Source: Bacteroidota bacterium (lineage in GTDB: Bacteria > Bacteroidota > Bacteroidia > Chitinophagales > Chitinophagaceae). Taken from it: a stretch of DNA of 54,361 bases. Positions 1,313 to 54,361 of this stretch are shown piece by piece. Both the position numbers and the translations under genes were made by a program. Location: positions 1 to 54,361 of the forward strand of contig JAFDXD010000010.1 of assembly GCA_018268135.1 (NCBI GenBank), read 5' to 3'. The number at the start of each line of letters is the position of its first letter. Positions within the stretch are counted from its first letter, which is position 1. The notes under the pieces are model-generated. The model did no database searches. It saw only the letters and a list, made by a program, of their open reading frames with translations, and was not told the DNA's origin.

Positions 1313-2305
1313 ATGAAAGTAGCTGTAGTAGGCGCAACCGGCCTGGTAGGTACAAAAATGTTGCAGGTGCTGGCAGAAAGAAATTTTCCGGTAACAGAAC
1401 TGTTGCCAGTGGCATCTGAAAGATCAGTAGGAAAAGAAATTGATTTTAAGGGAAAGAAATATAAAGTGGTAAGCATGCAGGATGCTATTGATGCCAAGCC
1501 GGCTGTAGCTATTTTTTCTGCCGGAGGCAATACCAGCCTTGAGTGGGCTCCAAAGTTTGCAGCAGCAGGCATTACAGTTGTAGATAACAGCAGCGCATGG
1601 CGCATGGATGCTTCCAAAAAATTGGTAGTGCCCGAAGTAAATGCACATGTACTTACTGCCGATGATAAAATAATAGCCAACCCCAATTGCTCTACCATTC
1701 AAATGGTGATTGTACTAAAACCTTTGCATGATAAATACAAAATAAAAAGGGTGGTAGTAAGCACTTATCAAAGCGTAACCGGTACCGGAGTAAAAGCTGT
1801 ACAACAAATGATGAATGAACGTAAAGGAGTAGAGGGTGAAATGGCCTATAAATATGCCATAGACCTTAACGTTATTCCCCAGATAGATGTATTTACAGAT
1901 AATGCCTACACTAAAGAGGAAATGAAAATGGTGAAAGAAACAAAAAAAATACTGGAAGATGAATCGGTAAAGGTAACGGCTACCTGTGTACGCATACCAA
2001 CCATGGGCGGGCATAGCGAAAGCGTGAATATTGAATTTGAAAATGATTTTAACCTTGATGATGTAAAAGCACTGCTTTCAAAAACAGAAGGCGTGGTAGT
2101 ACAGGATGATATTTCCAACGCTCTGTATCCAATGCCACTTACAGCACATGATAAAGATGAAACATTTGTAGGGCGCATCCGCAGAGATGAAACACAGCCT
2201 AATACGCTTAACTGCTGGATAGTGAGTGATAACTTACGTAAAGGCGCTGCTACCAATGCTATTCAAATTGCAGAATATCTTTCCGGCAAACAATACATTT
2301 CTTAA
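1313..2305 (+). CDS. asd: Aspartate-semialdehyde dehydrogenase
   Basis: Catalyses NADPH-dependent reduction of aspartyl phosphate to aspartate semialdehyde in the pathway to Lys/diaminopimelate, Thr, Met and Ile; cytoplasmic. The N-terminal nucleotide-binding motif is VVGATGLVGTKM. The active-site Cys126 sits in NPNCSTIQ, and the C-terminal half has RIPTMGGHSES, typical of the family's substrate and catalytic His region. The ATG at 1313 gives 330 residues, the normal size. The frame is open further upstream, but that part would be encoded by the terminator hairpin at 1251-1279 and lacks family similarity. The gene is followed by a bidirectional terminator at 2332. The leader (peptide plus hairpin) suggests attenuation control. 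Confidence 0.96.
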   Translation: MKVAVVGATGLVGTKMLQVLAERNFPVTELLPVASERSVGKEIDFKGKKYKVVSMQDAIDAKPAVAIFSAGGNTSLEWAPKFAAAGITVVDNSSAWRMDASKKLVVPEVNAHVLTADDKIIANPNCSTIQMVIVLKPLHDKYKIKRVVVSTYQSVTGTGVKAVQQMMNERKGVEGEMAYKYAIDLNVIPQIDVFTDNAYTKEEMKMVKETKKILEDESVKVTATCVRIPTMGGHSESVNIEFENDFNLDDVKALLSKTEGVVVQDDISNALYPMPLTAHDKDETFVGRIRRDETQPNTLNCWIVSDNLRKGAATNAIQIAEYLSGKQYIS

Positions 2306-2331
2306 TAAATAATAAACGGGGTATTCATTGT

Positions 2332-2367
2332 AAAAAGCTGCTGTTCTTAATTGTACAGCAGCTTTTT
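2332..2367. terminator. Bidirectional intrinsic terminator between asd and korB
   Basis: AAAAAGCTGCTGT at 2332-2344 is the exact inverse of ACAGCAGCTTTTT at 2355-2367, with a 10-nt loop. The A and T runs on either side let it work on both strands. It lies between the convergent ends of asd (+) and korB (-). Confidence 0.85.
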
Positions 2368-2402
2368 ATTTACATCCATTTAATCATTATTGATAGCAAA
2401 CT

Positions 2403-2431
2403 AAAAGCCTGCTATCTGTTAGCAAGCTTTT
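2403..2431. terminator. Second, imperfect hairpin downstream of korB
   Basis: AAAAGC (2403-2408) and TGCTA (2410-2414) pair with TAGCA (2420-2424) and GCTTTT (2426-2431), with one C/A mismatch and a 5-nt loop. It sits 43 nt beyond the korB stop and probably terminates korB on the minus strand. Confidence 0.5.
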
Positions 2432-2473
2432 TCGTTTAATGGTAATTGTTATGAAAAAAATCAGAAGAAGTAT

Positions 2474-3511
2474 TTAGCTGATTGTCCAGGTTTCATTGCC
2501 CCTCAATAATTTATCAAGGCTGCCTTTGCCTTTTTGTGCAATAGTTTCTTCAATCTGCATGGCCAGTACATCTTCGTAGCAAGCCCTTTCGGTTTCGTAA
2601 AATACGCCAAACGGCCTTGGCAAATGATCAGGCAGATAGGGGTTGTTAAACATTCGTGTAAGTATCTGCGCTTTAAAAAAATCTTTTTCATCATGCACCC
2701 AAAGTTCGTCGGCAGATGCCCCTTCGGATAAATCTACTACTACAGGTTTAAAGCCATCTAACTTTATTCCTTTATTTTGAGAAGCGCCAAATATCAAAGG
2801 CTTGCCTTGTTCTAAAAACAATGCTTCATCGGGCTTGCTGTTTTTTTCTGTAAACACTTCAAAAGCCCCATCATTAAAAATATTGCAGTTTTGATAAATT
2901 TCTAAAAAAGATGCCCCCTTATGAGCATGGCTACGCAACAGCATTGCCTGAAGATGTTTGGGGTCTCTGTCCATACTGCGGGCTACAAAGCTTGCATCGG
3001 CTCCCATAGCCAATGCCAGCGGATTAAAGGGATGGTCAATGCTACCCATTGGGGTGCTTTTGGTAACCTTGTGTTCTTCTGATGTAGGCGAGTACTGCCC
3101 TTTGGTAAGCCCATAAATCTGATTATTAAAGAGCATTACATTTACATCAAAATTTCGGCGAAGCAGATGAATGGTGTGGTTACCACCAATGCTCAGGCAG
3201 TCGCCATCTCCTGTTACTATCCACACACTTAGCTCAGGCCTTGCAGCTTTTAAGCCACTGGCAATAGCTGTAGCACGGCCATGAATGCTATGCATACCAT
3301 AGGTATTCATATAATATGGAAAACGGCTGCTGCATCCAATGCCCGAAATGATTACAAAATTTTCTTTTGGAATACCAAGTGTAGGCATTACTTTTTGTAC
3401 CTGAGCTAATATAGAATAATCGCCACAGCCGGGGCACCATCGTACTTCCTGGTCTGTTGCAAAATCTTTTGATGTAAGGGCTGCTGCTGTATGGGTTGCT
3501 GTATCTGACAT
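2474..3511 (-). CDS. korB: 2-oxoacid:ferredoxin oxidoreductase, beta subunit (KorB-like)
   Basis: The beta subunit binds thiamine pyrophosphate and a 4Fe-4S cluster, and with an alpha/gamma subunit carries out ferredoxin-dependent oxidative decarboxylation of a 2-oxoacid, usually 2-oxoglutarate for this type. Cluster cysteines appear in WCPGCGDY and GIGCSSR, with a later one in YQNCNIF. The TPP/Mg motif is GDGDCLSIGGNH followed by NNQIYGLTKGQ. At 345 residues the length is normal for KorB. The partner alpha subunit is often adjacent but is absent here: asd is convergent on one side and paaG divergent on the other. The 2-oxoglutarate specificity is family-based. The start is the ATG at 3511. 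Confidence 0.9.
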   Translation of the reverse strand: MSDTATHTAAALTSKDFATDQEVRWCPGCGDYSILAQVQKVMPTLGIPKENFVIISGIGCSSRFPYYMNTYGMHSIHGRATAIASGLKAARPELSVWIVTGDGDCLSIGGNHTIHLLRRNFDVNVMLFNNQIYGLTKGQYSPTSEEHKVTKSTPMGSIDHPFNPLALAMGADASFVARSMDRDPKHLQAMLLRSHAHKGASFLEIYQNCNIFNDGAFEVFTEKNSKPDEALFLEQGKPLIFGASQNKGIKLDGFKPVVVDLSEGASADELWVHDEKDFFKAQILTRMFNNPYLPDHLPRPFGVFYETERACYEDVLAMQIEETIAQKGKGSLDKLLRGNETWTIS

Positions 3512-5909: not shown

Positions 5910-6911
5910 ATGGAGAAATCTAATTTTGTAGACCAGATAAATATTTTTTGCCGAAGTGGGCATGGCGGAGCAGGCAGTAAGCATTTTTTACGCAACAAAC
6001 TTACTGCCAAAGGCGGGCCCGATGGTGGCGATGGTGGCAGGGGCGCTCATATTATTTTAAAAGGCAATGCACAATTGTGGACATTGCTGCATCTTAGATA
6101 TTTTAAAAATGTACTTGCAGAAGACGGTGAAAATGGCGGAGGCAACAACTCCACCGGCAGAAACGGAAAAGATATCATCATAGAAGTGCCGCTGGGAACC
6201 ATTGCCAAAGATGAAGAAACCGGAAAGCAGGAAGCAGAAATATTAGAAGACGGGCAGGAAATTATTTTAATGAAAGGTGGCAGGGGCGGCTTAGGAAACA
6301 GTAATTTTAAAACTGCCACTAACCAGGCTCCGGAATATGCCCAACCCGGCGAAGAAGGAGTAGAGGGAATAAAGGTATTAGAGCTAAAGGTATTGGCCGA
6401 TGTGGGCTTGGTGGGTTTTCCCAACGCAGGAAAATCTACCTTACTTAGCAGCATAACAGCGGCCAGGCCCAAAATAGCAGACTATGCTTTTACCACTCTT
6501 GTACCACAGTTGGGTATGGTGGCCTATCGGGATGGCAAAAGCTTTTGCATAGCCGATCTTCCGGGTATTATAGAAGGTGCTGCCGAGGGGAAAGGCCTGG
6601 GGCACCGGTTTTTAAGGCATATAGAACGCAATTCTATTTTATTATTTTTAATACCTGCCGATAGTAAAAATCATGCTGCCGAGTTTGAAGTATTGCGAAG
6701 CGAATTAGAGCAATACAACCCCGATATGTTGCAAAAAGATTTTGTAATTGCTATAAGTAAATCTGATATGCTGGATGATGAACTGCAAGCCGCCATCCAA
6801 AATGAATTGCCTAAAAAAATCCCATCCATTTTTATATCATCGGTAACCGGTAAAGGGTTACCACAATTGAAAGACCTGCTATGGACTACCCTTAATACTG
6901 AAGCAAAGTAA
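5910..6911 (+). CDS. obgE: GTPase ObgE/CgtA
   Basis: A 333-residue ribosome-associated GTPase involved in 50S subunit maturation and stress signalling. The glycine-rich Obg domain covers residues about 1-158 ([20 protein letters not shown]). The G domain follows with G1 [10 protein letters not shown]3 [10 protein letters not shown]4 SKSD and G5 SSVTGKGL. Length matches Bacteroidota Obg, which lacks the long C-terminal OCT domain. A near-consensus box GACATTTG lies just before the ATG at 5910. The next gene starts 12 nt after its stop. Confidence 0.97.
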
Positions 6912-6923
6912 ATTATTTTTATA

Positions 6924-7862
6924 ATGAACAGCGCCCTGACTGTTTTTTTTACATACATACAGGCCTATTACAAAAGCACATTTAAAAAGGCATATTTCAT
7001 TTTAATGTGTGCCATGCTTTCTGTAATATTAGTACTTAATTATGTACACCCTACTTTAATGCAAATTGTTCATGGCACTGCATGGCCATTACGGTTTGGC
7101 TGGTTTTATTTTTTATACCTCATTCCTTTTTCCGCCGCATATTTATTACAGGCATTTTATTTTGGCGAAAAAAAATTTTTAAAAAATAAGCATTTTCTTT
7201 CCTTATTGTTTTTAGCGCCTGCGTTTTTTTCATTCAGGGTTAATTTTGATTTTCATCATACCCTGATAAATTATATCTGGAGTGGAGATAAAGCAATATT
7301 CTGGATAAAATGCAGCGACTGGATTGTAAGGGCCCTGGTATTAATGGGGCTGGTATTTATTACCTGGAAATTTACAAAAACCAAGGGCGAGCCACTTTAT
7401 GGATTAGTCAAAAACAATAATACCCGTCCCTATTTCCTGGTACTGCTATGGATGATACCCCTGATAGCCTTTGCAGCTGTACAGCCTGATTTTATGCGGA
7501 TGTATCCCCGTGCTCAAATGATGTGGCCGTTGCAATTACCCAATAAGGGATTGCATTATTATTATTTTGAGGCATGTTATATGTTTGATTTTTTAAGCAT
7601 TGAATTATTCTTTAGGGGTTTTTTGATAATTGCGTTTATGCGTTATTGTGGCACCCAATGTATCATACCAGCAGCCTGTTTTTATTGTTGCATTCATTTG
7701 GGCAAGCCCATGGGCGAGGCCATCAGTAGTTTTGCAGGGGGCTTGTTTTTAGGCATCATTGCCTATTATACCAAAAGCATCAAAGGGGGACTTATTTTAC
7801 ACTTGGGCATTGCTTTGCTAATGGAACTTGCCGGTGTGGCTGCTCACATGTACTTAACCTGA
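6924..7862 (+). CDS. CPBP-family intramembrane protease
   Basis: A polytopic membrane protein of 312 residues with about eight hydrophobic segments. The CPBP (Abi) motifs are in the C-terminal third: SIELFFRGFL (motif 1, with Ile in place of the first Glu of EExxxR), FYCCIHLGKPMGE (motif 2 His) and ILHLGIALLMEL (motif 3 His). Family members are glutamyl intramembrane proteases related to Rce1. The loss of the first Glu is probably a variant of the Bacteroidota subgroup. It is probably co-transcribed with obgE (12-nt gap). The substrate is unknown. Confidence 0.8.
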   Translation: MNSALTVFFTYIQAYYKSTFKKAYFILMCAMLSVILVLNYVHPTLMQIVHGTAWPLRFGWFYFLYLIPFSAAYLLQAFYFGEKKFLKNKHFLSLLFLAPAFFSFRVNFDFHHTLINYIWSGDKAIFWIKCSDWIVRALVLMGLVFITWKFTKTKGEPLYGLVKNNNTRPYFLVLLWMIPLIAFAAVQPDFMRMYPRAQMMWPLQLPNKGLHYYYFEACYMFDFLSIELFFRGFLIIAFMRYCGTQCIIPAACFYCCIHLGKPMGEAISSFAGGLFLGIIAYYTKSIKGGLILHLGIALLMELAGVAAHMYLT

Positions 7863-12271: not shown

Positions 12272-13345
12272 TTATTTCAGTAAAACAGATAAACCTTTTT
12301 TATTATTGCGTACAATAAATAATAAACATACCAGGCAAATTACCAAAAGCATAGCAGTAAATTGATGCGCTACACCCAACCAAACAAAAATATTGCCCTG
12401 TGTGGCATTTAATACGGTACAAATACCCAGCGTAACCTGTAGCAAAATTAATACAAGCAGTATCAATCTGAACTTAGAAAATATGGCAGAGCCCTGTACT
12501 TTTTTTGAAAAATAAAAAAATAAGATTACAGAAATTAAAAGCAAATAAGCAAGGCTGCGATGTATAAAATGTACCGTTAAATTATTATTAATAAGATTTC
12601 GTGTCCAGGGTTTCAGCTCTGCAATATCAGCAGGAATAAACTGGCCATTGATATCGGGCCAGGTAGGCGCTGTGGCTGCAGCATGTAAGCCCGCCATAAA
12701 TCCCCCATACATCAATTGAAAAAATAATAACACAATCAAAAAAACAATGCTACGGTGCAGGCCGGTATGCCATACTTTTTGCTCTTCTTTAATTAATAAG
12801 CTAAGCGCAAACCACAAGGTATAAGAAAGAAGTATCAGCGCAGCTATAAAATGGGTAGTAAGTTCAATATGCCCTACAAAAAATTTTTCGGGAACCAGGC
12901 CGCTTTTCACCATTATCCACCCAATGGCGCCTTGCAATGCACCCAAAATAAAAAGTACCAGCATGGGAAAAATCATGGGCCGGTTAAATTTTTTCTTAAT
13001 CAAAAAATATACAAAGCCTACAATAAATACCAGCCCCATCAGCCTTGCCCAAAGCCGGTGCGACCATTCCCAAAAAAAGATGAATTTAAAATCCTGTAAA
13101 GAAAAATTTTCGTGTATATATTTAAATTGGTCCGTTGTTCTGTATTTATCAAACTCTAATTGCCAGGCGGCATGATTTAATGGAGGCAGTACACCGGTAA
13201 TGGGTTTCCACTCTGTAATAGACAATCCCGACTCTGTAAGCCGGGTAATTCCGCCCAGCAATACTTGTATCACTATCATTCCTACACCAATTAAAAGCCA
13301 GGTGGCCACCTGTTGGTTATTTTTATTTTCTGTAAGATTATTCAT
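12272..13345 (-). CDS. ctaA: Heme A synthase (COX15/CtaA)
   Basis: A 357-residue polytopic protein with about eight membrane helices that oxidises heme O to heme A for the cytochrome oxidase. The signature GGITRLTESGLSITEWKP near the N-terminus, heme-ligand histidines in WEWSHRLWARLMG and HFIHRSLAYLL, and LHAAATAPTWPDING are all characteristic. The ATG at 13345 is chosen rather than the in-frame one 10 codons upstream because a TAnnTTTG box lies at 13358-13351, only 5 nt before it, so the upstream ATG would not be on the transcript. No ctaB or cox genes are in the window. Confidence 0.92.
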   Translation of the reverse strand: MNNLTENKNNQQVATWLLIGVGMIVIQVLLGGITRLTESGLSITEWKPITGVLPPLNHAAWQLEFDKYRTTDQFKYIHENFSLQDFKFIFFWEWSHRLWARLMGLVFIVGFVYFLIKKKFNRPMIFPMLVLFILGALQGAIGWIMVKSGLVPEKFFVGHIELTTHFIAALILLSYTLWFALSLLIKEEQKVWHTGLHRSIVFLIVLLFFQLMYGGFMAGLHAAATAPTWPDINGQFIPADIAELKPWTRNLINNNLTVHFIHRSLAYLLLISVILFFYFSKKVQGSAIFSKFRLILLVLILLQVTLGICTVLNATQGNIFVWLGVAHQFTAMLLVICLVCLLFIVRNNKKGLSVLLK

Positions 13346-44117: not shown

Positions 44118-44164
44118 AATGAAAAAATATCTGCAAATTAAGTAATCGTTTTCATCACTATTCC

Positions 44165-44183
44165 TCATCTTTTTTAATGATTT
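44165..44183. promoter_or_regulatory. Degenerate operator copy upstream of the TCS 2 kinase
   Basis: TCATCTTTTTTAATGATTT is identical in 19 of 19 positions to the sequence at 44288-44306. The right half-site ATGATT is intact and the left is CCTCAT instead of AATCAT. Its edge is 48 nt from the kinase ATG (44117) on the minus strand, the same distance as operator to ATG at 44353. Confidence 0.5.
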
Positions 44184-44197
44184 TTTTCATAGTGAAT

Positions 44198-44281
44198 CAA
44201 ACCGTTAAAACGGAGTGTGTGTGGCGTTTCACCATAACCCACGGTTTTTCCATAACCCACGGTTTAAACCGTGGGTTATGG
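44198..44281. repeat. REP-like palindromic element B1
   Basis: Begins with a copy of the CAAACCGTTAAAACGG unit and ends with a perfect 32-nt palindrome at 44250-44281 whose core is CCACGGTTTAAACCGTGG. The element lies between two copies of the operator sequence. Related elements flank the HUH transposase at 46451. Confidence 0.85.
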
Positions 44282-44285
44282 AAAA

Positions 44286-44334
44286 AATCATCTTTTTTAA
44301 TGATTTCCCTGGCACTGCCTGCCCATTACTTTTA
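44286..44334 (+). promoter_or_regulatory. Operator and promoter of the secreted protein at 44353
   Basis: AATCAT (44286-44291), 8 nt, ATGATT (44300-44305). The -33 triplet position is TTT (44304-44306), then 20 nt, then the -7 box TACTTTTA (44327-44334). The same structure recurs at 46987 and 51140. Confidence 0.65.
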
Positions 44335-44352
44335 CAATGAAAAATTGTAATA

Positions 44353-46200
44353 ATGAAAAAATTTGCGCTCATCATTTTATTTGTTTTGGGAACATTTGCA
44401 ATGTATGCCCAAAGCGATATGGAACTTAACCGCGACTCTGTTGTCGGCTGGCAGTATATCGTTAACCAGATCAACCCAAAGGCAGTGTATAAGCCTATCA
44501 AAAGCGAATTTGCCAATGGGGCTACCTACACCGTTTGGCAACAACAGGCTTCGGATATGCTCATAAATTGGATTGAACAATCGTACCTGCCTCGTGGATT
44601 GGTGATGCGTACGATTGCAAAAAACGATAGTCGTTGGGATGTAGATAAAAATGGCCCGTTGCAGAGCTATGGTGCTACCTTTTTAGGTTATGAGGCTCAT
44701 TTTGTAAATGGCAAAATTAACCTTCACTGTTGCGAACAGGGTCAAAAATTAACAGCTGGCTTTAATGAATTTCCCGGTGTGTATGTGAAGGGGTTCAATC
44801 CCGGTGGTTTATACTTTTTTGCAGAGAATGCAAGCTTTAGTTCGGGCGATGATGATGCACAATTGCAAAAAGAAGGGATTGATAAAAAAATTCAATCTGC
44901 TGTTTATCCTTACCGCACCTATCTTGATCATTATCACAACAATGGGGCGCAATTTAATAAGATTGGGATTGTAGTTGTCAAAAACGGCGAATGGCCTTTT
45001 AAGCCGGTGCTGGTAAAAGATGCCATTGCTTTCATTCAGCAACAATTAACGGACTATCCTTCCATTCTTCAAAAAAATCCATACCAGGCACCTGAAATTA
45101 ATAAAGCAATTGAAAAATTAAAACCTTATTATAATCAGGTTGCAAAACTAAAGAGTAATACAGCCTTTGGTAATTTAATAAGAGATGATAATGGCCATGC
45201 CATTCTGAATCCTTCAGATATTATAAATGCAGATCCCCCAAATAAAACTTTTCCGGAATATTATATTTTAGTAACCACTACTAAGCAAACGATCGATCAA
45301 TCAAAAAGCGATAATCCACTTTGGTTGTATTTTAATTTAACGCCGCAAACTGATTTCATTGGCACAACGGCAAAATTTGATACAAAATTTGGAACCGGAG
45401 AACAACACATGGTCTATGAAATGTTGAACAATTTCAATTTTGATTTTGTGGCAAAATGGCTTGCACAGCCCGATGCAAGAAAAACCATGATCTATACTGC
45501 TATCAATAAGCCTGCAAGAACAACAGGAAATAATATGTCATCAAAGATGGTGGTTTCTTCAGCCACTGCCGCTAAAGAAAAAGACCCGAATACTATTTTG
45601 TATGAAGATTTTGAAGGCTACGGCGCTGGGCCACTTTCTGTAAAAAATTGGCATTCCTATAGGAACGGCGGACATAGTTTTGAAAATGCTTCCGTCTGCT
45701 CTCCGGATGGGCAAAGCGCTAAATGGATTTATATTCCCGAAAAGTTTACTTTTTATCCCGATTTAAAAAAACAGCTCCCGGCAAATTTTACCGTTAACTA
45801 TGATGTCTATTTCGGTAAAAATATTCCCAACAAACGCAGCTCATTTTACATACGCCTCAGCACAGAAAACTATATTGATATGAATGACATCAACAGAAAT
45901 GGTTTTGATTTTTTATTGGCATTGAGTGGAGAAGCAGAAACGAATAAGCGCTTTATGAAGAAAGGTATTGACGAAAAAATCCAGGATTTCCATGTTGCCA
46001 ACCTTAAGTCAGGTGAGGCAGCTCATGTAAGTATTTCGGTGCAGGGGCCGGCGATTGCAGTATCAGTAAATGGTAAGCAAATAGCAATAGATAATTCTGT
46101 ATTACCCGCTGGCGTCCGTTTTACAAAAATCGGTTGGTATTGTGGCCAAAAAGATATTTACCTGGGGAATGTTTACATTCAGGCAACAGCAACGAAATAG
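44353..46200 (+). CDS. Secreted protein with C-terminal LamG-like domain
   Basis: A 615-residue protein. The signal peptide ends MYA before Q (residue ~19). The middle carries GEWPFKPVLVKDAIAFIQQQL followed by long helices, a weak echo of the LVPVSRK-type segment in the proteins at 49840 and 53387. The C-terminal ~190 residues are a beta-sandwich (ILYEDFEGYGAG ... WHSYRNGG ... FTVNYDVYFGK ... AVSVNGKQIAID), similar in layout to the LamG-like domain of the OmpA protein at 32953. Function unknown. The promoter contains the shared operator. Confidence 0.78.
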   Translation: MKKFALIILFVLGTFAMYAQSDMELNRDSVVGWQYIVNQINPKAVYKPIKSEFANGATYTVWQQQASDMLINWIEQSYLPRGLVMRTIAKNDSRWDVDKNGPLQSYGATFLGYEAHFVNGKINLHCCEQGQKLTAGFNEFPGVYVKGFNPGGLYFFAENASFSSGDDDAQLQKEGIDKKIQSAVYPYRTYLDHYHNNGAQFNKIGIVVVKNGEWPFKPVLVKDAIAFIQQQLTDYPSILQKNPYQAPEINKAIEKLKPYYNQVAKLKSNTAFGNLIRDDNGHAILNPSDIINADPPNKTFPEYYILVTTTKQTIDQSKSDNPLWLYFNLTPQTDFIGTTAKFDTKFGTGEQHMVYEMLNNFNFDFVAKWLAQPDARKTMIYTAINKPARTTGNNMSSKMVVSSATAAKEKDPNTILYEDFEGYGAGPLSVKNWHSYRNGGHSFENASVCSPDGQSAKWIYIPEKFTFYPDLKKQLPANFTVNYDVYFGKNIPNKRSSFYIRLSTENYIDMNDINRNGFDFLLALSGEAETNKRFMKKGIDEKIQDFHVANLKSGEAAHVSISVQGPAIAVSVNGKQIAIDNSVLPAGVRFTKIGWYCGQKDIYLGNVYIQATATK

Positions 46201-46207
46201 AATAATC

Positions 46208-46397
46208 AAACCGTTAAAACGGTTTGTGTATGAGGATGTTTTCCATAGCCCACGGTTTAAACCGTGGGTTATGGAAAACCATGGGTTATGTTTAATCCAT
46301 GGGTTATGTTTAAACCATGGGTTATGGGAAACCATGGGTTATGGGAAACCATGGGTTATGGGAAACCATGGGCTATGGAAAACCGTGGGCTATGGGA
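46208..46397. repeat. REP-like element B2 with tandem ~19-nt array
   Basis: Starts with the perfect palindrome AAACCGTTAAAACGGTTT (46208-46225), continues to a second palindrome at 46243-46274 (core CCACGGTTTAAACCGTGG), then about seven degenerate tandem units of about 19 nt based on AAACCATGGGTTATGGG up to about 46397. It lies at the 3' side of the transposase gene. Confidence 0.85.
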
Positions 46398-46450
46398 TAT
46401 CCGGGAATTTGCAACAAATGGTTTTAACCATTTTGTTTTATCCCCAACAT

Positions 46451-46888
46451 TTATTCGCTGGCATCAAATCCATAAATCTTCAAAAAACCATCGTACTCTT
46501 TTTGAAATGATTTTTGCGCATGGTGAGATTTCTGATTCTTTATATAATTGAAAACTTTTTCCAACTGTGATTCACAAACAGAATAGGCAGCATACCCAGT
46601 TTGCCACGAAAATTTTTCTGCAATCAGGTTTTGTTCGTTTACAAAATGTGAAGTGCCTCCCTTTACCTGTTTAATTACGTCAGCAATAGATTTTTGAGGA
46701 CTTAATAAAAACAGGCAATGCACATGCTCCGGCATTCCGTTAATAATTCTTACAGGGCAACCGCTATCAATAAATTCTTTACGCATGTGGTTGTGAATAT
46801 TTTCTTCCACAGATGGATGAATTAATGGTGCCCGTTCTTTTGTAGCCCAAATGGCATGAATCCAAATTTTCACGAATGAATGTGGCAT
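46451..46888 (-). CDS. RAYT/IS200-type HUH (Y1) transposase
   Basis: A 145-residue protein of the Transposase_17 (PF01797) family. The HUH motif is His55-Val-His57 in MPEHVHCLFLL, and the catalytic Tyr is Tyr115 in FNYIKNQKSHH. The N-terminus MPHSFVKIWIHAIWATK is typical. ATG 46888 is used; the upstream in-frame TTG at 46909 is an alternative. The ORF is flanked by REP-like palindromes B2 (46208-46397) and B3 (46918-46981), with B1 further left, so it fits a REP-associated tyrosine transposase rather than a plain IS200. No tnpB and no obvious IS ends are visible. Confidence 0.85.
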   Translation of the reverse strand: MPHSFVKIWIHAIWATKERAPLIHPSVEENIHNHMRKEFIDSGCPVRIINGMPEHVHCLFLLSPQKSIADVIKQVKGGTSHFVNEQNLIAEKFSWQTGYAAYSVCESQLEKVFNYIKNQKSHHAQKSFQKEYDGFLKIYGFDASE

Positions 46889-46917
46889 GGCGGATAATTG
46901 TTTATTCAAATATAACT

Positions 46918-46981
46918 AAACCGTTAAAACGGTTTGTGTGTGGATGTTCTCCATTGCCCACGGTTTAAACCGTGGGCAATG
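46918..46981. repeat. REP-like palindromic element B3
   Basis: Starts AAACCGTTAAAACGGTTTGT at 46918 and ends with a 30-nt palindrome at 46952-46981 (core CCCACGGTTTAAACCGTGGG). It directly abuts the operator at 46987. Confidence 0.85.
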
Positions 46982-46986
46982 AAAAA

Positions 46987-47035
46987 AATCATCTTTTTTA
47001 ATGATTGCTCAACCTCTTACAGGCATCTACTTTTA
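46987..47035 (+). promoter_or_regulatory. Operator and promoter of the TPR protein at 47056
   Basis: AATCAT (46987-46992), 8 nt, ATGATT (47001-47006). TTG at 47005-47007 overlaps the right half-site, then exactly 20 nt, then TACTTTTA at 47028-47035. This is the cleanest of the set: -33, spacing and -7 are all near consensus. Confidence 0.7.
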
Positions 47036-47055
47036 CAGAACAAACTTCTTAAATA

Positions 47056-49233
47056 ATGAAAAAGATAACAGTCCTGCTTTTACTCAGTATGGCAATAGGT
47101 TTCACTTTTGCACAAAAACCTACCAAAGAACAATATGAAGCAGATAAGAAAAAGATGATAGAGGCTCAAAAAAAATTAGATGCTGCAAAGGCAGCCATGA
47201 CACCGGAGACCAGGAAACAGTTTGACGACATGATGGAGAAAATGGGAGCAAATAAAGCTATGCAAAATGCTCAACAGGAATTGAACTATAATTCCAATAG
47301 CAAACCTGTATTGCAGCGAACCACCGATCCAAACATCATACCGGATAAACCTTCTACGCTCAAAATTGCCGCAACACCTCAATCAAAAGAACAGCTCATC
47401 GCTTATCTGAAACCGATTTTTTCGCAAACAGAATCTGCAATGAAACCGGAACATAAAAAAGCAGTGCAAAGCCTACTGAACAAAGGCGCTGAAACAGGAA
47501 AATACGCCATGGTATTTTGGACACACAACGAGTTTGATAAAACCATGTATCTTTTGCTGAATGCCTGTATCAGCAGTCCTGATGATTTTGTATCTATCAA
47601 TAATTTAGGTGCATTGCTCATCATTTCAGGATATGCACATAAAGCATTGCCTTTACTTTTATACACACAAAAATTTGTACCACAAAGCGGCACACTCCTG
47701 AATAATGTAGGGCAGGCATATCTGAGTCTTGGAAATGTAGAAAAAGCACAGTCGCTGTTCTCATTTGCGGTTGCCAAAGACTCCACACAATCAGAAGCGT
47801 ACCGATCAATGGCGCTGATTGCACATAAGCAGGGAAACCAAACACTCTGCGCCAGTTATCTTGAAAAAGCAATAGCCAATGGTGGCGCTACTTCAGAAGC
47901 CATCAATTTATTAAGCCAGGTAGCCCCCGACATAGATTTGTCTGAAGCAATTCGCAACCGCTTTAAGCAATTTTATAAAGACCATAGTGTTACCAAACGC
48001 TTTATTGTACCCGCTATTCCGGCTTCGTATGAAGAAGCAGTGGAAAGAGACAATGAGGTGGAAACCTATTTCAGAGATTTTGATGCCACCATCAATGCAA
48101 CTTACAAAACTCAGCAGCAGTTAAACAAACAATACGAAAACCAGGTGCAGGCAAATGCTACAAAAAAAATGGCGCAAATGCAGCAAGTAATGGCCAATGC
48201 CGGTAAGCCGGGATTTGAAAAATCTATGCAGGATATGAAAGCTTCGCTTAAAAATCCTTTTTTGGCACAGGGAGCCGTTATGTTGTCCAGTATTGACAAT
48301 CCGAAATTCAGCAAATCGTATTACAACCGTATGAAAACCGAAACAGAAAAACGGTTACAAGCAGAGAATGAACTGAAACAGGGCTTGAAAACTGATTATG
48401 ATAATAAGATATCTGCATTGACAATTGAAAAAAGTAAACTTAAAGATGGTGAAGGCCAGGATGCAGCCAATGCACGTGCTGTTGAAATTGAAAAAGAACT
48501 TTGCGAACTGAAAATTGCAAGGCAAAATAAATGGTTGAGCAAATCTGCCGAAATCAATAATCAGTATATCCACAATATGGAAGACCTGCTGAACCAGCGT
48601 TTGCAGGAATATCTTTTTTGGAATACCATAGTCATGCAGTCCATGCAAGACCCTACTGCAGTTAACTACGCATATTATGTTAGCTATTTAAAAAACCTGT
48701 ACGATCTTGCTTACCATCTTTTTCCAACACATGTGGATGGAGGGCTATCGAAACCCTGTGAGGATTATTTAAAAGCCAATAATTATAGGGGAAAAATACA
48801 TGACTGGGAAAGAGAACATTGCGAAGTTGACTTTGGATTTGATGCAATGGTAATGGGTGCAAAAATGAATTGTGAAGGATGGTCGGTATATGCCGATTTT
48901 AAAGCCGAGTCATTTAAATATGAAGCCAGTACAGACCCTGTAACCTGTGAATACACCGAGCATAGCATTTCAGTAAAAGCAGGCAAGGATAAAGAATTTA
49001 AAATGGGCAACATTAAAGGTTCCATTGGTGCATCGGTGGAAACTACCGTAAAATTTGACGGCAATTTAAACCCTGTTGATTTAATAGTGAAAGGTGCAGC
49101 AGGTGCAGGATTAAGTGGCCCAATGGGCGGCAGTGCAAGTGCCGAATTAGGTTCGGCAGAAATAAGTGTAAGGGGCGGTTTCAACTCATCTGGGCCTGGC
49201 TTTACACCTTTTGGAAGCGATTTTTTAAAATAA
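47056..49233 (+). CDS. Secreted TPR protein, module copy 1
   Basis: A 725-residue exported protein; the signal peptide ends TFA before Q (residue ~19). A helical region with MTPETRKQFDDMMEKMG follows. TPR-like repeats lie around residues 180-290 (NNLGALLIISGYAHKALPLL, NNVGQAYLSLGNVEKAQSLF). A SYEEAVERDNEVE segment, a long Gln-rich coiled-coil-like region (residues ~340-520), a Cys-rich part (REHCEVDFGFDAMVMGAKMN) and a Gly-rich beta C-terminus (GNIKGSIGASVETTVKFD) end the protein. The protein at 51222 has the same layout and clear sequence similarity. Two genes follow at 20 and 44 nt, so this is probably the first gene of an operon. Function unknown. Confidence 0.82.
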   Translation: MKKITVLLLLSMAIGFTFAQKPTKEQYEADKKKMIEAQKKLDAAKAAMTPETRKQFDDMMEKMGANKAMQNAQQELNYNSNSKPVLQRTTDPNIIPDKPSTLKIAATPQSKEQLIAYLKPIFSQTESAMKPEHKKAVQSLLNKGAETGKYAMVFWTHNEFDKTMYLLLNACISSPDDFVSINNLGALLIISGYAHKALPLLLYTQKFVPQSGTLLNNVGQAYLSLGNVEKAQSLFSFAVAKDSTQSEAYRSMALIAHKQGNQTLCASYLEKAIANGGATSEAINLLSQVAPDIDLSEAIRNRFKQFYKDHSVTKRFIVPAIPASYEEAVERDNEVETYFRDFDATINATYKTQQQLNKQYENQVQANATKKMAQMQQVMANAGKPGFEKSMQDMKASLKNPFLAQGAVMLSSIDNPKFSKSYYNRMKTETEKRLQAENELKQGLKTDYDNKISALTIEKSKLKDGEGQDAANARAVEIEKELCELKIARQNKWLSKSAEINNQYIHNMEDLLNQRLQEYLFWNTIVMQSMQDPTAVNYAYYVSYLKNLYDLAYHLFPTHVDGGLSKPCEDYLKANNYRGKIHDWEREHCEVDFGFDAMVMGAKMNCEGWSVYADFKAESFKYEASTDPVTCEYTEHSISVKAGKDKEFKMGNIKGSIGASVETTVKFDGNLNPVDLIVKGAAGAGLSGPMGGSASAELGSAEISVRGGFNSSGPGFTPFGSDFLK

Positions 49234-49252
49234 TAATTTAATATAACAAACA

Positions 49253-49795
49253 ATGAAAAAAGGATTATCAATTATTATGGCATCCATTTTATTTTCATTT
49301 TATGGTAATAGCCAAAACCTGACCTTCGGAAAATTTTTGGGTAGTATTAATCCAACCAAATTTGTTGGAAACTCTACTTACAGAATGTACGAAAAACAAG
49401 TGGAGATTATTGAAGTTAGTACCAACGGGCAAAATCAAAATACAACAGTCAATTTCAAATTTTCACCCTGCTCTGCCAGTGCAGATTTTATAGCACATAC
49501 TCAAATTGGAAAAAATATTAATCAGGGCCAGATTGATGTATTGGAGAAAAACCCATACAACCAGGGCTACAACAAAATAAAATATAAAATCTATTTTGAA
49601 AATGCACAGGTAATTACCTGTAACGATACAAGAGCTTGCAGCAATGTAATGGCAACAACCGTTTCTCTAAAGCCACAGCGAATTTGCTGGGTTTATTATA
49701 ATTATGATATAAACGGGAAGTTGCTTAATAGTACAACTAACGGCTTTGATTCAAAGACAGGTCAGCCCTGGTCAGTAACAGTGCCTAATTTTTAA
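49253..49795 (+). CDS. Small secreted protein with Hcp-like sequence pattern
   Basis: A 180-residue protein; the signal peptide ends NSQ region near residue 20. The body reads like the Hcp/TssD tube-protein pattern: an early beta region, CSASADFIAHTQIGKNI (compare D-K-A-S...G-K-x-I), IKYKIYFENAQVI, VSLKPQRICWVYYNYDINGK, and a Trp-containing end (GQPWSVTV). This is pattern similarity read by eye, not a database hit, and Hcp proper has no signal peptide. It lies between the TPR gene and the LVPVSRK-type gene; the second module copy lacks it. Function unknown; tube-like assembly outside the cytoplasm is speculative. Confidence 0.7.
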   Translation: MKKGLSIIMASILFSFYGNSQNLTFGKFLGSINPTKFVGNSTYRMYEKQVEIIEVSTNGQNQNTTVNFKFSPCSASADFIAHTQIGKNINQGQIDVLEKNPYNQGYNKIKYKIYFENAQVITCNDTRACSNVMATTVSLKPQRICWVYYNYDINGKLLNSTTNGFDSKTGQPWSVTVPNF

Positions 49796-49839
49796 TGCCC
49801 TAAAAAATTAATACAAACAGCTAATTAAAATATAAAACA

Positions 49840-51129
49840 GTGAAAAATACTATCAGCATTTTATTATTTCTATTTGCACATTCCATTTGCTTTTCGCAAA
49901 TAAAAAAAATTACCGATCCACTAACTCCCTGCAATGAAACCTCGGATGCTGTTGCCGGCATTTACACCAATCATACCAATCCTGAATATGGCCCCATCGT
50001 TTTAAAAGGCACAGCTACTGAAAAGGCTGCCATGATGAAAAACCTCATTGCCATTGAAAAGCTGGAAGAAGCAAGCCGTAAAGATTTTATTTTGACGGGC
50101 TGTGTTGCCAGGGTAAGTTTTGCAAGATGGGGCAATAGTGATTATGGAAAAACTGTTTATGCCAGGTATGGGTACCAGTTAGGAGTTTATCAATTTGTAT
50201 GTAATGTAAAAGAACATGTTACTAAAATTGTAGATGAATACAGATCAGTATTTCGGGTAGATATTAATCCCTACATTGCCACAGGTACCAAAGCCGGCGG
50301 CATTGGAGAGTTTACCATTAATGGCAAATCTAGATACGATATTCCTATAGAAGCGAAAAGCGGCCCAAACTTTGAAAACGACAAAAAAAACAATCCCAGC
50401 AAAGTATCCCAATACATTTCAGAATCTATGATGCTGGCCAATCGTTCCAGTGATTATAAAAACAACCATGCCGATTTTCTGAAAATAATTAACGGCAAAG
50501 GCTACACAGAAAACTGGATGAATGGCGATAAGTATGATACTCGTTCGGCAGATTCCTATCAATGGATAGACCGACGCTACCTAATCACCAAACCAGGAGT
50601 TCCCCTACTCGTTCCCGTTAGTAGAAAACAATATTTAGAAGATATGTTGGAATACCTGGAAATAGAAAAAGCAAATTTTCTGTATGTCAATGTACTTAAA
50701 CTCAAAGACATTGGAACCAATACTGCCGACTGGGCAAAAAAAGAGAAAGCTATTCTGGAAGAGGACCAAAATATCTATCCAAAAATATACGAAGCAAAAA
50801 AGGAAAAAATAAAAATGCTGTTGGCCAATCAAAAATCAGAATGGCTCAACAAACCAGCTGTTGTAGAAAAAAACAACAGAACATCGGATGCAAACAAACG
50901 CCTGGAAAACCTGGGGAAATTTTATGATGCAGAAGATGACTATAATACCGCTTTGTATGTACTAAACCCAGAATATTGTAAAAGCAATAACGGCCAAACA
51001 ACCAAACCCCTCTTCATGGAAGTGCAATTCCGATATGAACGAGGTAAAGGCCGTGGTTTTTCATCCAGGCTTTTCGATAATTGGGAAAAGAATTTTGATT
51101 TAAGTGCCTTGTGGAAGATGCTGAACTAA
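49840..51129 (+). CDS. Secreted LVPVSRK-motif protein, module copy 1
   Basis: A 429-residue protein starting with GTG 49840 (no in-frame ATG before the signal peptide, which ends near residue 20 at FSQ). The N-terminal half has LIAIEKLEEASRKDFILTG. The central motif is VPLLVPVSRKQYLEDMLEY, followed by helical, Lys/Glu-rich stretches. The C-terminus contains FMEVQFRYERGKGRGF. The truncated protein at 53387 shares the motif and the preceding and following segments and is clearly a paralogue. It follows the Hcp-like gene by 44 nt. No known family recognised; function unknown. Confidence 0.8.
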   Translation: MKNTISILLFLFAHSICFSQIKKITDPLTPCNETSDAVAGIYTNHTNPEYGPIVLKGTATEKAAMMKNLIAIEKLEEASRKDFILTGCVARVSFARWGNSDYGKTVYARYGYQLGVYQFVCNVKEHVTKIVDEYRSVFRVDINPYIATGTKAGGIGEFTINGKSRYDIPIEAKSGPNFENDKKNNPSKVSQYISESMMLANRSSDYKNNHADFLKIINGKGYTENWMNGDKYDTRSADSYQWIDRRYLITKPGVPLLVPVSRKQYLEDMLEYLEIEKANFLYVNVLKLKDIGTNTADWAKKEKAILEEDQNIYPKIYEAKKEKIKMLLANQKSEWLNKPAVVEKNNRTSDANKRLENLGKFYDAEDDYNTALYVLNPEYCKSNNGQTTKPLFMEVQFRYERGKGRGFSSRLFDNWEKNFDLSALWKMLN

Positions 51130-51139
51130 CCACTCAAAA

Positions 51140-51188
51140 AATCATGTTTTTTAATGATTGGCTCTGCTGTTGAATACTGATACTTTTA
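51140..51188 (+). promoter_or_regulatory. Operator and promoter of the TPR protein at 51222
   Basis: AATCAT (51140-51145), 8 nt (G instead of C at the first position), ATGATT (51154-51159). TTG at 51158-51160, exactly 20 nt, then TACTTTTA at 51181-51188. No REP element adjoins this copy. Confidence 0.7.
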
Positions 51189-51221: not shown

Positions 51222-53375
51222 ATGAGAAAATACAATTTAGCCATATTTATTGCTTTGCTGTTTGCAACAAACGTTGTGGCGCAGTCAAAAAACCCAACTT
51301 CCAACAAAGAGATACAAGATAAGTTACAACAGGCGCAGCAACAGTTGGATAAACTTACACCCGAACAAAAAAAGATGATGGAGCAGATGGGTATGTCAAC
51401 ATCTGTGCCTTCAAAGCCAACCGGATATACTGATGCCGATATTAAAGCAGCCGTAGGGAGCGATGCTTATAGTGTACCTTCAAAAAACATGAAGCTTATT
51501 GCTGCCATTCCCAAAATAACATTAACTGCCGCAATGCTTCCGTCTTACATAAAATCATTAAACGAGTATATTGATAAAGGTATTTCAGGCAATGCTAAGC
51601 AGGCAGCACAAAGCATTTATACCGACTTTAAAAACAACAAATTTTCTCCCGAAGCAATAGGCAATGCTGCCGTAGGAATATGGACCACAGGGCAATTGGA
51701 ATTAGCAGTGTTGGTAATAGGGAAAGCTTGTACAGACAACGTAGCTGATGCAGACTTGCTAAGCAACTTTGCAGCCATGCTAAGTATGAGTGGCGCACCT
51801 CACAAAGCTATTCCACTGCTGGAATATCTTAATACACAATATCCCGACAATACCACCATCCTTAATAACCTTGGGCAGGCGTGGTTTTATTTGGGTGAAA
51901 CCGACAAAGCCAATGCACAATTAGATAAGGTAGTAAAAGCATTTGCCTATCATCCACAGGCAAACTACACCCAATGCCTGATTCAGCAAAGCAGGGGCAA
52001 TACCAGCACTGCTATTGAAAAAATGAAGAACTCCCTTGCGTATAGTTTTTCACCAGATAAAATAAATATGCTGAGAAAGATGGGATATAAAATAAAAGGA
52101 AGTGATATGCGTATTCCTTTTCGTCCTGACCCTAATCCACTGGGCTTGCAAAATTTTATGCGACCTGATGTCCCCAATTCTTATGAAGAGGAACTAAAGG
52201 TTAAAGCCGATTGGGATGCTTTTCAACAACAGATAAGCGAAAGTAGCCTGCAATTAGGAAAAGATCTTATTCCGTACCAGCAGGCGATGGCAAAAAATGC
52301 AGCGGAGGCATATAAAAAATTTAATAATAAGACAGCAACTGATATCAGTAAAATGAATGCAGGTTCGGTCACTACTGAAAATATATATAGAACTGTGGCC
52401 GAAAAAAACCTGCAAGACATGGATAAAGATGGAGGTGTAACATATCGCCTTAAAAAAGCAAAAGCTTTGATTGACTCATTAAGAAATGATTTTACAGCAA
52501 AGGATCAGCTTCAACGAAAAAAGATTGAAAAGGAAAACAGCATTAAGGCCAACCAGGAATCTGAGCTGGCTAAGAAGGGGGAAGATATTGGGTTTGATAA
52601 TTGCAAAGTGCAGCAGATTTACAGCGAGTGGGTGTATGCAACCTACAATAAGCCGCTTGAAGAAGCCTACAAAAATTACCTGCACCAATTAAGATTAAAG
52701 CTAAGCGAAGAATTGTATTGGAAGCAATTCACACAAGATGCTTCGGCCTTTGAAGCTACCAAAATAGCCGCTAAAAAAGAATGGCTAAGTGCATTGGGTA
52801 ACACCAGGTATATATCCACCAACCTGTATGGCGATTGCACGCCGCAACAGAAAAAAGAAAGCCGCTATAAACTGGCTGATTTTGATGAAATGCATTGCAG
52901 TTATGTTAGTACGCTGGATTTTGGTTTTTGCAAAGCAACATGGGAGTGTGGTTGGTCCCGTATAGAATTTGATGCAGGCAAACTAAATGGGGATTTCAAA
53001 TTTTATATGGATAACAATGCTAAAACTCGTTTTGTAAAAGGCACAGTAGAAGCAACTGCTATCAATATAGGCGGTTCCGTAAAAAAAGGCCCGATTCAAA
53101 TAGGCGCCAATGTTAAAGCAGGTGTTGGTGTAGAGTTTACTGGCCGTGGTGTAGAAGATGTGTATGTAACAGGAAAAGCATCGGTAGAAGTAAAATCAAA
53201 CATCATAGACAGATTTGATGAACACATTAAGGATGCGAATGGTGGAGATAAAAATCAACCCGGCATGGGTGATGCTCAACTCAGCGACAAGGGCATAGAA
53301 ATTGGCGTGGATGGCAGGATGAGCTTAATATCCGGCAATACATCCACTAATATTTTTGTAAACACTCCAAACTAA
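51222..53375 (+). CDS. Secreted TPR protein, module copy 2
   Basis: A 717-residue exported protein; the signal peptide ends VVA before Q (residue ~20). Layout equals the protein at 47056: early LTPEQKKMMEQMG segment, TPR-like repeats (SMSGAPHKAIPLLEYLN, NNLGQAWFYLGETDKANAQL), SYEEELKVKADWD, a helical middle, a Cys-rich segment (MHCSYVSTLDFGFCKATWEC, GW) and a Gly-rich beta end (GPIQIGANVKAGVGVEFTG). The C-terminus ends NIFVNTPN. Similarity is moderate, so the duplication is not recent. The following gene starts 11 nt after its stop. Function unknown. Confidence 0.82.
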   Translation: MRKYNLAIFIALLFATNVVAQSKNPTSNKEIQDKLQQAQQQLDKLTPEQKKMMEQMGMSTSVPSKPTGYTDADIKAAVGSDAYSVPSKNMKLIAAIPKITLTAAMLPSYIKSLNEYIDKGISGNAKQAAQSIYTDFKNNKFSPEAIGNAAVGIWTTGQLELAVLVIGKACTDNVADADLLSNFAAMLSMSGAPHKAIPLLEYLNTQYPDNTTILNNLGQAWFYLGETDKANAQLDKVVKAFAYHPQANYTQCLIQQSRGNTSTAIEKMKNSLAYSFSPDKINMLRKMGYKIKGSDMRIPFRPDPNPLGLQNFMRPDVPNSYEEELKVKADWDAFQQQISESSLQLGKDLIPYQQAMAKNAAEAYKKFNNKTATDISKMNAGSVTTENIYRTVAEKNLQDMDKDGGVTYRLKKAKALIDSLRNDFTAKDQLQRKKIEKENSIKANQESELAKKGEDIGFDNCKVQQIYSEWVYATYNKPLEEAYKNYLHQLRLKLSEELYWKQFTQDASAFEATKIAAKKEWLSALGNTRYISTNLYGDCTPQQKKESRYKLADFDEMHCSYVSTLDFGFCKATWECGWSRIEFDAGKLNGDFKFYMDNNAKTRFVKGTVEATAINIGGSVKKGPIQIGANVKAGVGVEFTGRGVEDVYVTGKASVEVKSNIIDRFDEHIKDANGGDKNQPGMGDAQLSDKGIEIGVDGRMSLISGNTSTNIFVNTPN

Positions 53376-53386
53376 AATAAGTAATC

Positions 53387-54361
53387 ATGACCAAAAAGAT
53401 AATGATTATAACGCTTATGGCTCTTTTTCATATTCATGGTGCTTTTGCCCAGGATTGCAAAACTTCAAACGATCTTGCAACTGTTCCGGGAAAATATCAA
53501 ACTGCAGCACAATATCCCTGGCCCGCAGTTAGAGCCGAATATTTTAATAATTTGACCACGGCAGCAGATAAGGCTTTGGCTAAGCAAACGCTGAATCAAA
53601 TTGAAAAAATTGAAGCACAAAGTCATGCAGGTTTTAATCTAACCGGTGGTAATTGGGAGAACTACTATGCAACCAAAGGATATGGCAATTATAGCAATGT
53701 AAAATTGGCCCAGTACAATTTTGAGTCTTCGCTGCATGAGTATTTTTGTTTGAATGGCAAGCTTAAAAGAAACGATGAGGCAGGAACCATTTTGCGTATT
53801 TATGTAAATGCCATCCCTACCAACACCCTCAATCGTTTTTTAGATTATCCTTTTGGCAGCAGCATGGGTGAGTATGATTTTGGATTTCAATTCAAGGATT
53901 GGAAAAACCATAAATCAGTAAATGTAAATGACCCCTTGATTAGTTTGTTTAATTATTTCTCCTGCAATAGTGCGCAGCTCATTCAGGTAATCAATTCAGG
54001 TGAAGGATATTTTCAGGATGTTGCCGAAAAAGATATTAAACCAAACAACCGTAACAATTTCATTTACCGGTACTGGTTTGTAAAGAAAAAAGATATTCCC
54101 GTTTTAGTACCGGTAAGCAGAAAAGAATATTTGCAAAGCCTGTTGGAATATTATGAAAGGGAAAAACTTTATTTTCCAAAATTGATTACAGAATTAACCT
54201 CCAACCACAATAAGTCCATTGAACGAAATTATGGGAACTGGGAGGCAGATGTAGCCGATAAAATTGCTATTGTAAAAAAAGTATTAAGCGAAAATAAAGA
54301 AGAGTGGCTAATGAAACAGGCTGTAATAAACCGTATAGAAGATAATGCCCAAAACTATAAA
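53387..54361 (+). CDS. Secreted LVPVSRK-motif protein, module copy 2 (truncated by window edge)
   Basis: The frame is open from ATG 53387 to the right edge (325 residues visible). A signal peptide ends AFA before Q (residue ~21). LNQIEKIEAQSHAGFNLTG corresponds to IEKLEEASRKDFILTG in the 49840 protein, and IPVLVPVSRKEYLQSLLEY matches VPLLVPVSRKQYLEDMLEY. NKEEWLMKQAVINR matches QKSEWLNKPAVVEK. It starts 11 nt after the preceding gene, with no Hcp-like gene between. The C-terminus lies outside the window. Confidence 0.8.
   Translation, partial: MTKKIMIITLMALFHIHGAFAQDCKTSNDLATVPGKYQTAAQYPWPAVRAEYFNNLTTAADKALAKQTLNQIEKIEAQSHAGFNLTGGNWENYYATKGYGNYSNVKLAQYNFESSLHEYFCLNGKLKRNDEAGTILRIYVNAIPTNTLNRFLDYPFGSSMGEYDFGFQFKDWKNHKSVNVNDPLISLFNYFSCNSAQLIQVINSGEGYFQDVAEKDIKPNNRNNFIYRYWFVKKKDIPVLVPVSRKEYLQSLLEYYEREKLYFPKLITELTSNHNKSIERNYGNWEADVADKIAIVKKVLSENKEEWLMKQAVINRIEDNAQNYK

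Follow-up and report, generated by a model that had tools for sequence, protein, structure and literature searches.

We analysed a 54,361-nucleotide (nt) contig (hereafter the window; JAFDXD010000010.1, assembly GCA_018268135.1) from a Chitinophagaceae bacterium of the phylum Bacteroidota and identified an operator–promoter module that heads three putative transcription units for exported-looking proteins. The module comprises a 20-bp imperfect palindrome, AATCAT-N8-ATGATT, and a −7-like promoter box at a fixed distance downstream. The three units (S1, S2–S3a–S3b and S4–S5) run rightward, each with a module at its head, and the adjacent genes for a NarL/LuxR-type response regulator (P0001) and a sensor histidine kinase with a tetratricopeptide repeat (TPR) region (P0002) point leftward. 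On comparative sequence grounds, the palindrome is probably a class-II-like activator site of this neighbouring regulator, which together with the kinase would form a TPR-sensor two-component system.

The operator–promoter module in the window and beyond

A window scan located exact copies of AATCAT-N8-ATGATT on the plus strand at 44286–44305 (operator 1), 46987–47006 (operator 2) and 51140–51159 (operator 3), before the genes starting at 44353, 47056 and 51222. Operators 1 and 2 read AATCATCTTTTTTAATGATT and operator 3 reads AATCATGTTTTTTAATGATT, with spacers CTTTTTTA, CTTTTTTA and GTTTTTTA, respectively. The module search and spacing count placed the −7-like box TACTTTTA on the same strand at 44327–44334, 47028–47035 and 51181–51188, beginning in each case 21 nt past the right edge of the operator. 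The three identical layouts reported in a first-pass annotation, made from the sequence alone, were thus confirmed, and the distances from operator edge to ATG (47, 49 and 62 nt) fall where it had put them, at 47–62 nt. It had also set the box 20 nt from a −33 triplet; this spacing holds, and the triplet, which overlaps the operator edge, is TTG at two sites and TTT at 44286.

Across the 3,266,241-base genome there are four perfect copies of the motif, three of them within 6.9 kb, and the control yielded 0 matches. By a rough Poisson estimate, random scatter would produce such a cluster with a genome-wide p of roughly 5e-5. The fourth perfect site, on contig C162, has a different spacer and was absent from the result of the composite-module search described below, and we treat it as chance. 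The 18-mer TCATNTTTTTTAATGATT was found without mismatch at four genome places, all inside the cluster. When up to two mismatches were allowed, the bare motifs were unremarkable: the 20-mer gave 12 matches in the window versus 9.4 expected, and the 18-mer gave 17+15 matches in the genome versus 8+12 for the backwards control. We therefore placed weight on the perfect and composite forms. The composite module was defined as AATCATNNTTTTNNATGATT-N21-TANNTTTA (operator, 21 nt, TAnnTTTA), and with up to three mismatches it matched four genome places, namely the three window modules and positions 1865–1913 of contig C59. Its backwards control gave two matches at up to three mismatches and none at up to two.

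The C59 module, which had not figured in the first-pass annotation, also precedes a gene for an exported-looking protein (1931–3328 in locus L081), which, judged by its N-terminus only, resembles the products of post-module genes in loci L105, L236, L237 and L256. Adjoining this module (3532–7867 in L081) are genes for a PNGase F-like protein and for a LamG protein that carries a type IX secretion tail. The local regulon that had been proposed thus holds as a cluster of three modules and is not strictly local. Nor is the motif random in the genome, an outcome that the first-pass annotation had named as grounds for rejection. Chance or base composition, with AT-rich palindromes simply falling near AT-rich promoters, could appeal to the bare motif, which at two mismatches is about as frequent as in controls. 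However, the composite module occurs only in the cluster and on C59 at up to three mismatches, though the backwards control has two matches there, and it is conserved across genomes. Chance is thereby refuted, with a negligible probability left to it, and the module is confirmed as real.

The spacing is conserved as well. We collected 66 sites and 43 modules from 23 sequences chosen for a regulator or module close to that of the window. Operators were taken at up to two mismatches, some of the sites being kinase-side copies in reverse reading, and boxes were counted at offsets of 5–41 nt. In 39 of the 66 sites, a perfect TANNTTT box begins exactly 21 nt after the operator. At other offsets, perfect boxes were seen once at 20, once at 33 and three times at 34 nt, with ~0.2 expected per offset from a background of 0.003 per position. 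Excluding L081, L256 and L257, which had been fetched for their module match, leaves the box at 21 nt in 34 of 59 sites. Forty-four sites with a good box give the consensus AATCATCtTTTTTAATGATt, 21 nt, TAcTTTTA, and in these sites the spacer between operator and box has 53% GC versus 25% after the box. A downstream open reading frame (ORF) begins within 200 nt in 41 of the 43 modules, with a median box-to-ATG distance of 20 nt (range 9–194). A signal-peptide-like start, called by a simple hydropathy rule, was present in 39 of these 41 ORFs versus 141 of 261 control ORFs from the same loci (one site with box CATCTTTT was dropped). Locus L111 carries two tandem operators 29 nt apart (13149–13197) before S1- and S2-like genes downstream of the regulator.

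The surroundings of the operators raise a further explanation, in which the repeats are by-products of a repetitive extragenic palindrome (REP) and its REP-associated tyrosine transposase (RAYT), or of gene duplication, and have no regulatory role. REP-like palindromes (CCACGGTTTAAACCGTGG and AAACCGTTAAAACGGTTT) lie at 44196–44275, 46205–46420 and 46917–46980 around a Y1 transposase gene (46451–46909; IS200-like, RAYT-type in our reading), operators 1 and 2 each follow the end of such a core at 15 nt, and S2 is a relative of S4. The REP-like pattern CCNNGGTTTAAACCNNGG has three genome places, all in this window. However, 36 of the 43 modules, that of operator 3 included, have no core within 200 nt upstream; the modules precede unrelated genes; the 21-nt spacing is fixed; and the arrangement is conserved in other named lineages. 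By-products of this kind are thus largely refuted and very improbable. Palindrome cores do lie within 200 nt upstream of 7 of the 43 modules (two of them in the window, with loci L069, L070, L102 and L105 also represented), compared with a total of 23 cores over the 418 kb of these loci, and REP-like elements seem to settle beside the module promoter.

Operator type and regulator clade

Operator and regulator were compared across a genus set of 93 genomes, in each of which at most 34 regulator candidates were scored for identity. A regulator of at least 68% identity is present in 8 of the 93 genomes, and the AATCAT module, at up to one mismatch, was detected in 7 of these 8 and in 0 of the other 85 (Fisher p 8e-10). 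A variant module, ATCCYNTTTTTNRGGGAT (ATCC..GGGAT) plus box, follows a second regulator clade: at up to one mismatch it occurs in 14 of 19 genomes with a regulator of 59–66% identity and in 0 of 74 others (Fisher p 8e-13). The genome of the window itself has no module of this second type. The first-pass annotation had named the NarL-type regulator at 41532 as the likely binder, and the two-way association between operator type and regulator clade supports this assignment. More telling than the p values are two further observations. Genome G018 encodes two regulators, one per clade, and each locus has its own operator type. Moreover, some sites are found on contigs other than that of the regulator (for example G069:C39, G016:C13, G050:C36 and G035:C132), always in genomes of the right clade; in draft genomes, contigs with separate site and regulator may be neighbours.

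The arrangement of the locus also recurs. Among 117 relatives searched for the S genes, S2 matched in 29 and S1 in 9, and G018, G069 and G006 repeat the divergent arrangement of regulator–kinase pair and S-type genes, with the same operators close by. Among named genomes, a scan covering the best 80 of 556 regulator relatives found operator-like sites at the divergent promoter in Filimonas, Ferruginibacter, Flavihumibacter, Algoriphagus, Flavobacterium terrae, Gynurincola and a Cyclobacteriaceae metagenome-assembled genome. From 102 regulator–kinase rows we dropped 8 with fewer than 200 bases upstream (L106 among them), leaving 94 loci in which a kinase adjoins the regulator. A score of at least 14 was reached by a divergent site in 38 of these 94 versus 0.4% of 1,880 shuffled regions, with kinase frames that start inside the gene or leave the contig kept and counted as misses. 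Twenty rows had a regulator of at least 67% identity, and after removal of 3 duplicates, 16 of the 17 distinct loci reached this score. The single miss, L108, has the left arm CATCAT and lacks a box at 21 nt. L127, whose best segment is 69% identical, is not in the locus set, its regulator frame being broken. The left arm is AATCAT in 13 of the 17 loci and AATCAC in L239.

At the protein level, the recognition helix was read for 18 of the 19 second-clade genomes (all but G059, and G002 via the duplicate L113) and is TVD[TS]HRKN, as against T[IV]NTHRKS. Residue 176 of the regulator is N or D and corresponds in alignment to the lysine of TVKTH in VraR, a base-contacting position in NarL. Position 5 of the operator arm correlates with residue 176 (16/2 versus 4/12), which is suggestive. 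In a mutual-information analysis from which duplicates and regulators below 40% identity had been dropped, column 173 ranked second and column 153, outside the recognition helix, ranked first. More distant regulators also carry D176 with other operators. The correlation is not independent of phylogeny, and we claim no residue-level recognition code.

Several observations weigh against the assignment of the operator to this regulator. G054 has a regulator of 69% identity and no AATCAT module, its best site being AATCACCCTTTTTAAGGATA. At two mismatches, the AATCAT module appears once each in G010 and G038, versus two control matches, and the variant module appears in 29 of the 93 genomes, with one match in its control. 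The variant is absent at up to one mismatch from 5 of the 19 second-clade genomes, three of which have the two-mismatch form. Other left arms occur at the divergent promoter (AATCCT in L107 and AATCCC in L069), and three sites of L108 lack a box at 21 nt. On the tree, residue 176 has a single change, and there is 1 independent pair. The Fisher tests are inflated by shared ancestry and by linkage and common inheritance of site and regulator, some of the same loci had served to draw up the scoring scheme and the variant pattern, and a regulator could be missed under the limit of 34 candidates.

Such common inheritance could mimic a link if another transcription factor owned the operator and controlled both the two-component operon and the exported-protein genes, since regulator and targets are neighbours. 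However, operator type tracks regulator clade both ways, including two clades in one genome and the off-contig sites. Inverted repeats of 20 bp are a usual site for a GerE-type dimer, and the operator fits this description. We accordingly regard a different factor as unlikely and return to P0001. As expected for a NarL/LuxR-type regulator with an operator of its own, several promoters share an inverted repeat of about 20 bp, and this repeat co-occurs with the regulator clade across genomes.

Promoter position and the kinase-side operator

The sigma-A −7 box of Flavobacterium psychrophilum is TAnnTTTG at −12 to −5 (PMC9723704). By analogy, the window operators would span about −53 to −34, with their centre near −43.5. 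This is close to the class-II activator position of LuxR and CRP. The operator overlaps the −33 position, as numbered by this analogy, at a fixed distance from the −7 box, which is the arrangement of a class-II promoter. We prefer activation mainly because of this position of the operator centre.

We infer the following course of events. The 20-bp imperfect palindrome AATCATCTTTTTTAATGATT would be the operator of the adjacent NarL-type response regulator. The phosphorylated regulator dimer would bind it, overlapping and replacing a weak −33 element, and would recruit polymerase and activate a sigma-A-type promoter with its −7 box (in most cases TACTTTTA or TATTTTTA) exactly 21 nt downstream. 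Upstream of this step, the periplasmic TPR region of the kinase may sense a protein or peptide; the output would be a group of exported proteins. Feedback control of the kinase–regulator operon would come from a second operator in reverse orientation, whose promoter-proximal arm is imperfect.

The same regulator might instead bind as a repressor that blocks the −33 region until the signal relieves it. The overlap of the operator with the −33 position would suit such a role, and the kinase-side copy could be a repressor site. However, repressor sites do not usually need a fixed spacing to the −7 box, and here this spacing is fixed at 21 nt. In addition, the −33 element is matched poorly, by TTG or TTT alone, and the characterised system closest in design works through an activator, FimR (PMC1974823). 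Repression by P0001 thus appears improbable, if less so than ownership of the operator by another factor, and activation by P0001 remains our preferred interpretation.

The kinase-side operator lies on the minus strand at 44163–44182 and, by the window scan and comparison with relatives, reads AATCATTAAAAAAGATGAGG with an imperfect promoter-proximal arm. In the kinase direction, AATCATTAAAAAAGATGAGG is followed after exactly 21 nt by a −7-like box, TTAATTTG (44134–44141, minus strand), absent from the first-pass annotation. That annotation had noted a degenerate copy 48 nt upstream of the kinase start; the copy (TCATCTTTTTTAATGATT, 44165–44182) is present, at 47 nt rather than 48 nt from the kinase ATG at 44117. 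When 34 sequences were scanned for AATCATNNAAAANNNNGANN, 51 sites came up, of which many are the usual operators in reverse reading. Of the 51, 15 have a T[AT]NNTTTG box 21 nt further on and 3 have it at 20 nt, with one case each at 8, 28 and 38 nt. None of the 15 kinase-side sites with the box at 21 nt ends in GATT, and their proximal arms range from one changed base (GATGATA, L065) to GGGGAGC (L066 and L079). The distal AATCAT was required by the AATCATNNAAAANNNNGANN search, so that its constancy there is by construction; it is present in the kinase-side site of second-clade loci L066, L079, L112, L114, L119, L241 and L252. Two exceptions, L116 and L117, have a well-paired kinase-side site with a T-run in the kinase direction. 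The kinase-side copy is best read as a separately oriented site, reverse to the modules of the exported genes. Its imperfect arm, retained in many relatives, looks kept in the clade of the window regulator and is consistent with weaker or different feedback on the kinase–regulator operon.

Neighbouring genes and related systems

P0001 (41532–42146, minus strand) combines a receiver domain with a GerE helix-turn-helix, both above the Pfam cut-off (Response_reg 1.1e-21, GerE 2.5e-17). P0002 (42168–44117, minus strand) matches HisKA_3 and HATPase_c above cut-off and TPR_12 slightly below it (29.6 versus 30.1); a signal peptide and one transmembrane segment, judged by eye, accompany the TPR region. 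On the plus strand, S1 (44353–46200; 615 aa) has relatives in G018 (62%) and G069 (54%). S2 (47056–49233; 725 aa) and S4 (51222–53375; 717 aa) each contain a TPR-like stretch, and S4 is a distant relative of S2 (28% identity over part). The starts of S1, S2 and S4 are signal-peptide-like by the simple rule. S3a (49253–49795; 180 aa) begins 19 nt after S2, and S3b (49840–51129; 429 aa, listed with a GTG start) begins 44 nt after S3a; both are probably co-transcribed with the S2 unit. The frame of S5 (53387–54361; NCBIfam search only) leaves the contig end. Pfam gave no match for S1, S3a or S3b, and among its TPR matches for S2 and S4 only TPR_17 in S2 was above cut-off. NCBIfam likewise assigned no family to S1, S3a or S3b; its matches for the exported proteins of the window were far under cut-offs, leaving S1–S5 without an informative family beyond the TPR stretches. 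S4, the only one of these proteins folded, gave a modest AlphaFold model from 16 sequences (pLDDT 65.1, pTM 0.45) with helical repeats, long helices and a beta region, and the Foldseek rows listed for it are TPR proteins. Neither Pfam nor NCBIfam placed any of S1–S4 in a fimbrial family.

The closest characterised system is FimS/FimR of Porphyromonas gingivalis, in which, as predicted for the window, a sensor kinase with a TPR region and a response regulator control genes for surface or exported proteins. FimS has a periplasmic region of eight TPRs for which a protein signal is suggested (PMC5706477), and FimR activates mfa1, among surface-protein genes, by direct promoter binding (PMC1974823). 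P0002 matches the NCBIfam FimS model NF053520 at 79.4 bits (best stretch 190–434) against a curated cut-off of 600, and is thus not FimS. By analogy, the window system would work like FimS/FimR, and we do not file it as a member. The available text of these papers gives no operator sequence ('binding site' has 0 occurrences in PMC1974823 and PMC5706477, 'inverted repeat' 0 in PMC1974823).

Further likenesses concern the operator and the regulator fold. Our searches of the open-licence literature yielded no defined operator for a TPR-sensor kinase and its NarL-type partner in Bacteroidota, no description of this regulator family, its two operator forms or the kinase-side site, and 0 matches in an exact-letter search with four operator forms. 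Class-II sites of LuxR/NarL-type regulators, such as the lux box and the DosR box, are inverted repeats of ~20 bp bound through a GerE-type helix-turn-helix, centred near −42.5 and overlapping −35. The window operator resembles them in length, symmetry and corresponding position and differs in sequence and core, and in having a Bacteroidota-type −7 box after it where those sites have a −10 box. The best solved relatives of P0001 are VraR, DesR, DevR and NarL, which come from other phyla and share the receiver–GerE architecture over nearly the full length; the recognition helix of VraR reads VKTHVSN versus INTHRKS in P0001.

In a Chitinophaga locus (L124), a regulator 49% identical to P0001 lies beside a LanC gene, with LanB nearby, and AATCACGTTTTTCCGTGATC (AATCACG..CGTGATC), 21 nt and TACATTTA precede precursor-like ORFs (module region 6852–7353). 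The first of these ORFs scored 17.1 bits against the class I leader model, under the cut-off of 22. L126 has the same kind of module (6826) and a protein that is LanB-like by its N-terminus only. Both loci differ from the window in their arms and in having a peptide as output, and no kinase like P0002 was found next to the regulator at the locus. L124 thus appears to be a lanthipeptide relative of the design, as L126 probably is, and an extension of the promoter design to peptide production has thinner evidence. WATC..GATW palindromes also lie upstream of the kinases of distant regulators (40–50%) in L162, L173, L121 and L150, with AATCATGGTTTGCAATGATT in the Myroides locus L173.

A broader proposal is put forward tentatively. 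The palindromic operator (WATC/GATW ends, T-rich core) placed exactly 21 nt before TAnnTTT may be one promoter design of a phylum-wide Bacteroidota family of TPR sensors and NarL-type regulators, switching on gene cassettes for exported TPR proteins and, in Chitinophaga, for lanthipeptides. Inner arm positions 5–7 would mainly separate clades and paralogues, each kinase promoter would carry a reversed operator with one weak arm, and the exported TPR proteins, or peptides that they handle, may be the signal of the sensor.

The kind of system is already known. What the sharp motif, the fixed spacing and the two clade-specific forms add is that such regulons become predictable from sequence. The motif lets exported proteins without assigned function be grouped in a common programme, and the two forms allow a test of how related regulators in one cell avoid cross-talk. 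The module also offers a concrete candidate for a regulated promoter in a group that uses a −7 box unlike the one common in bacteria.

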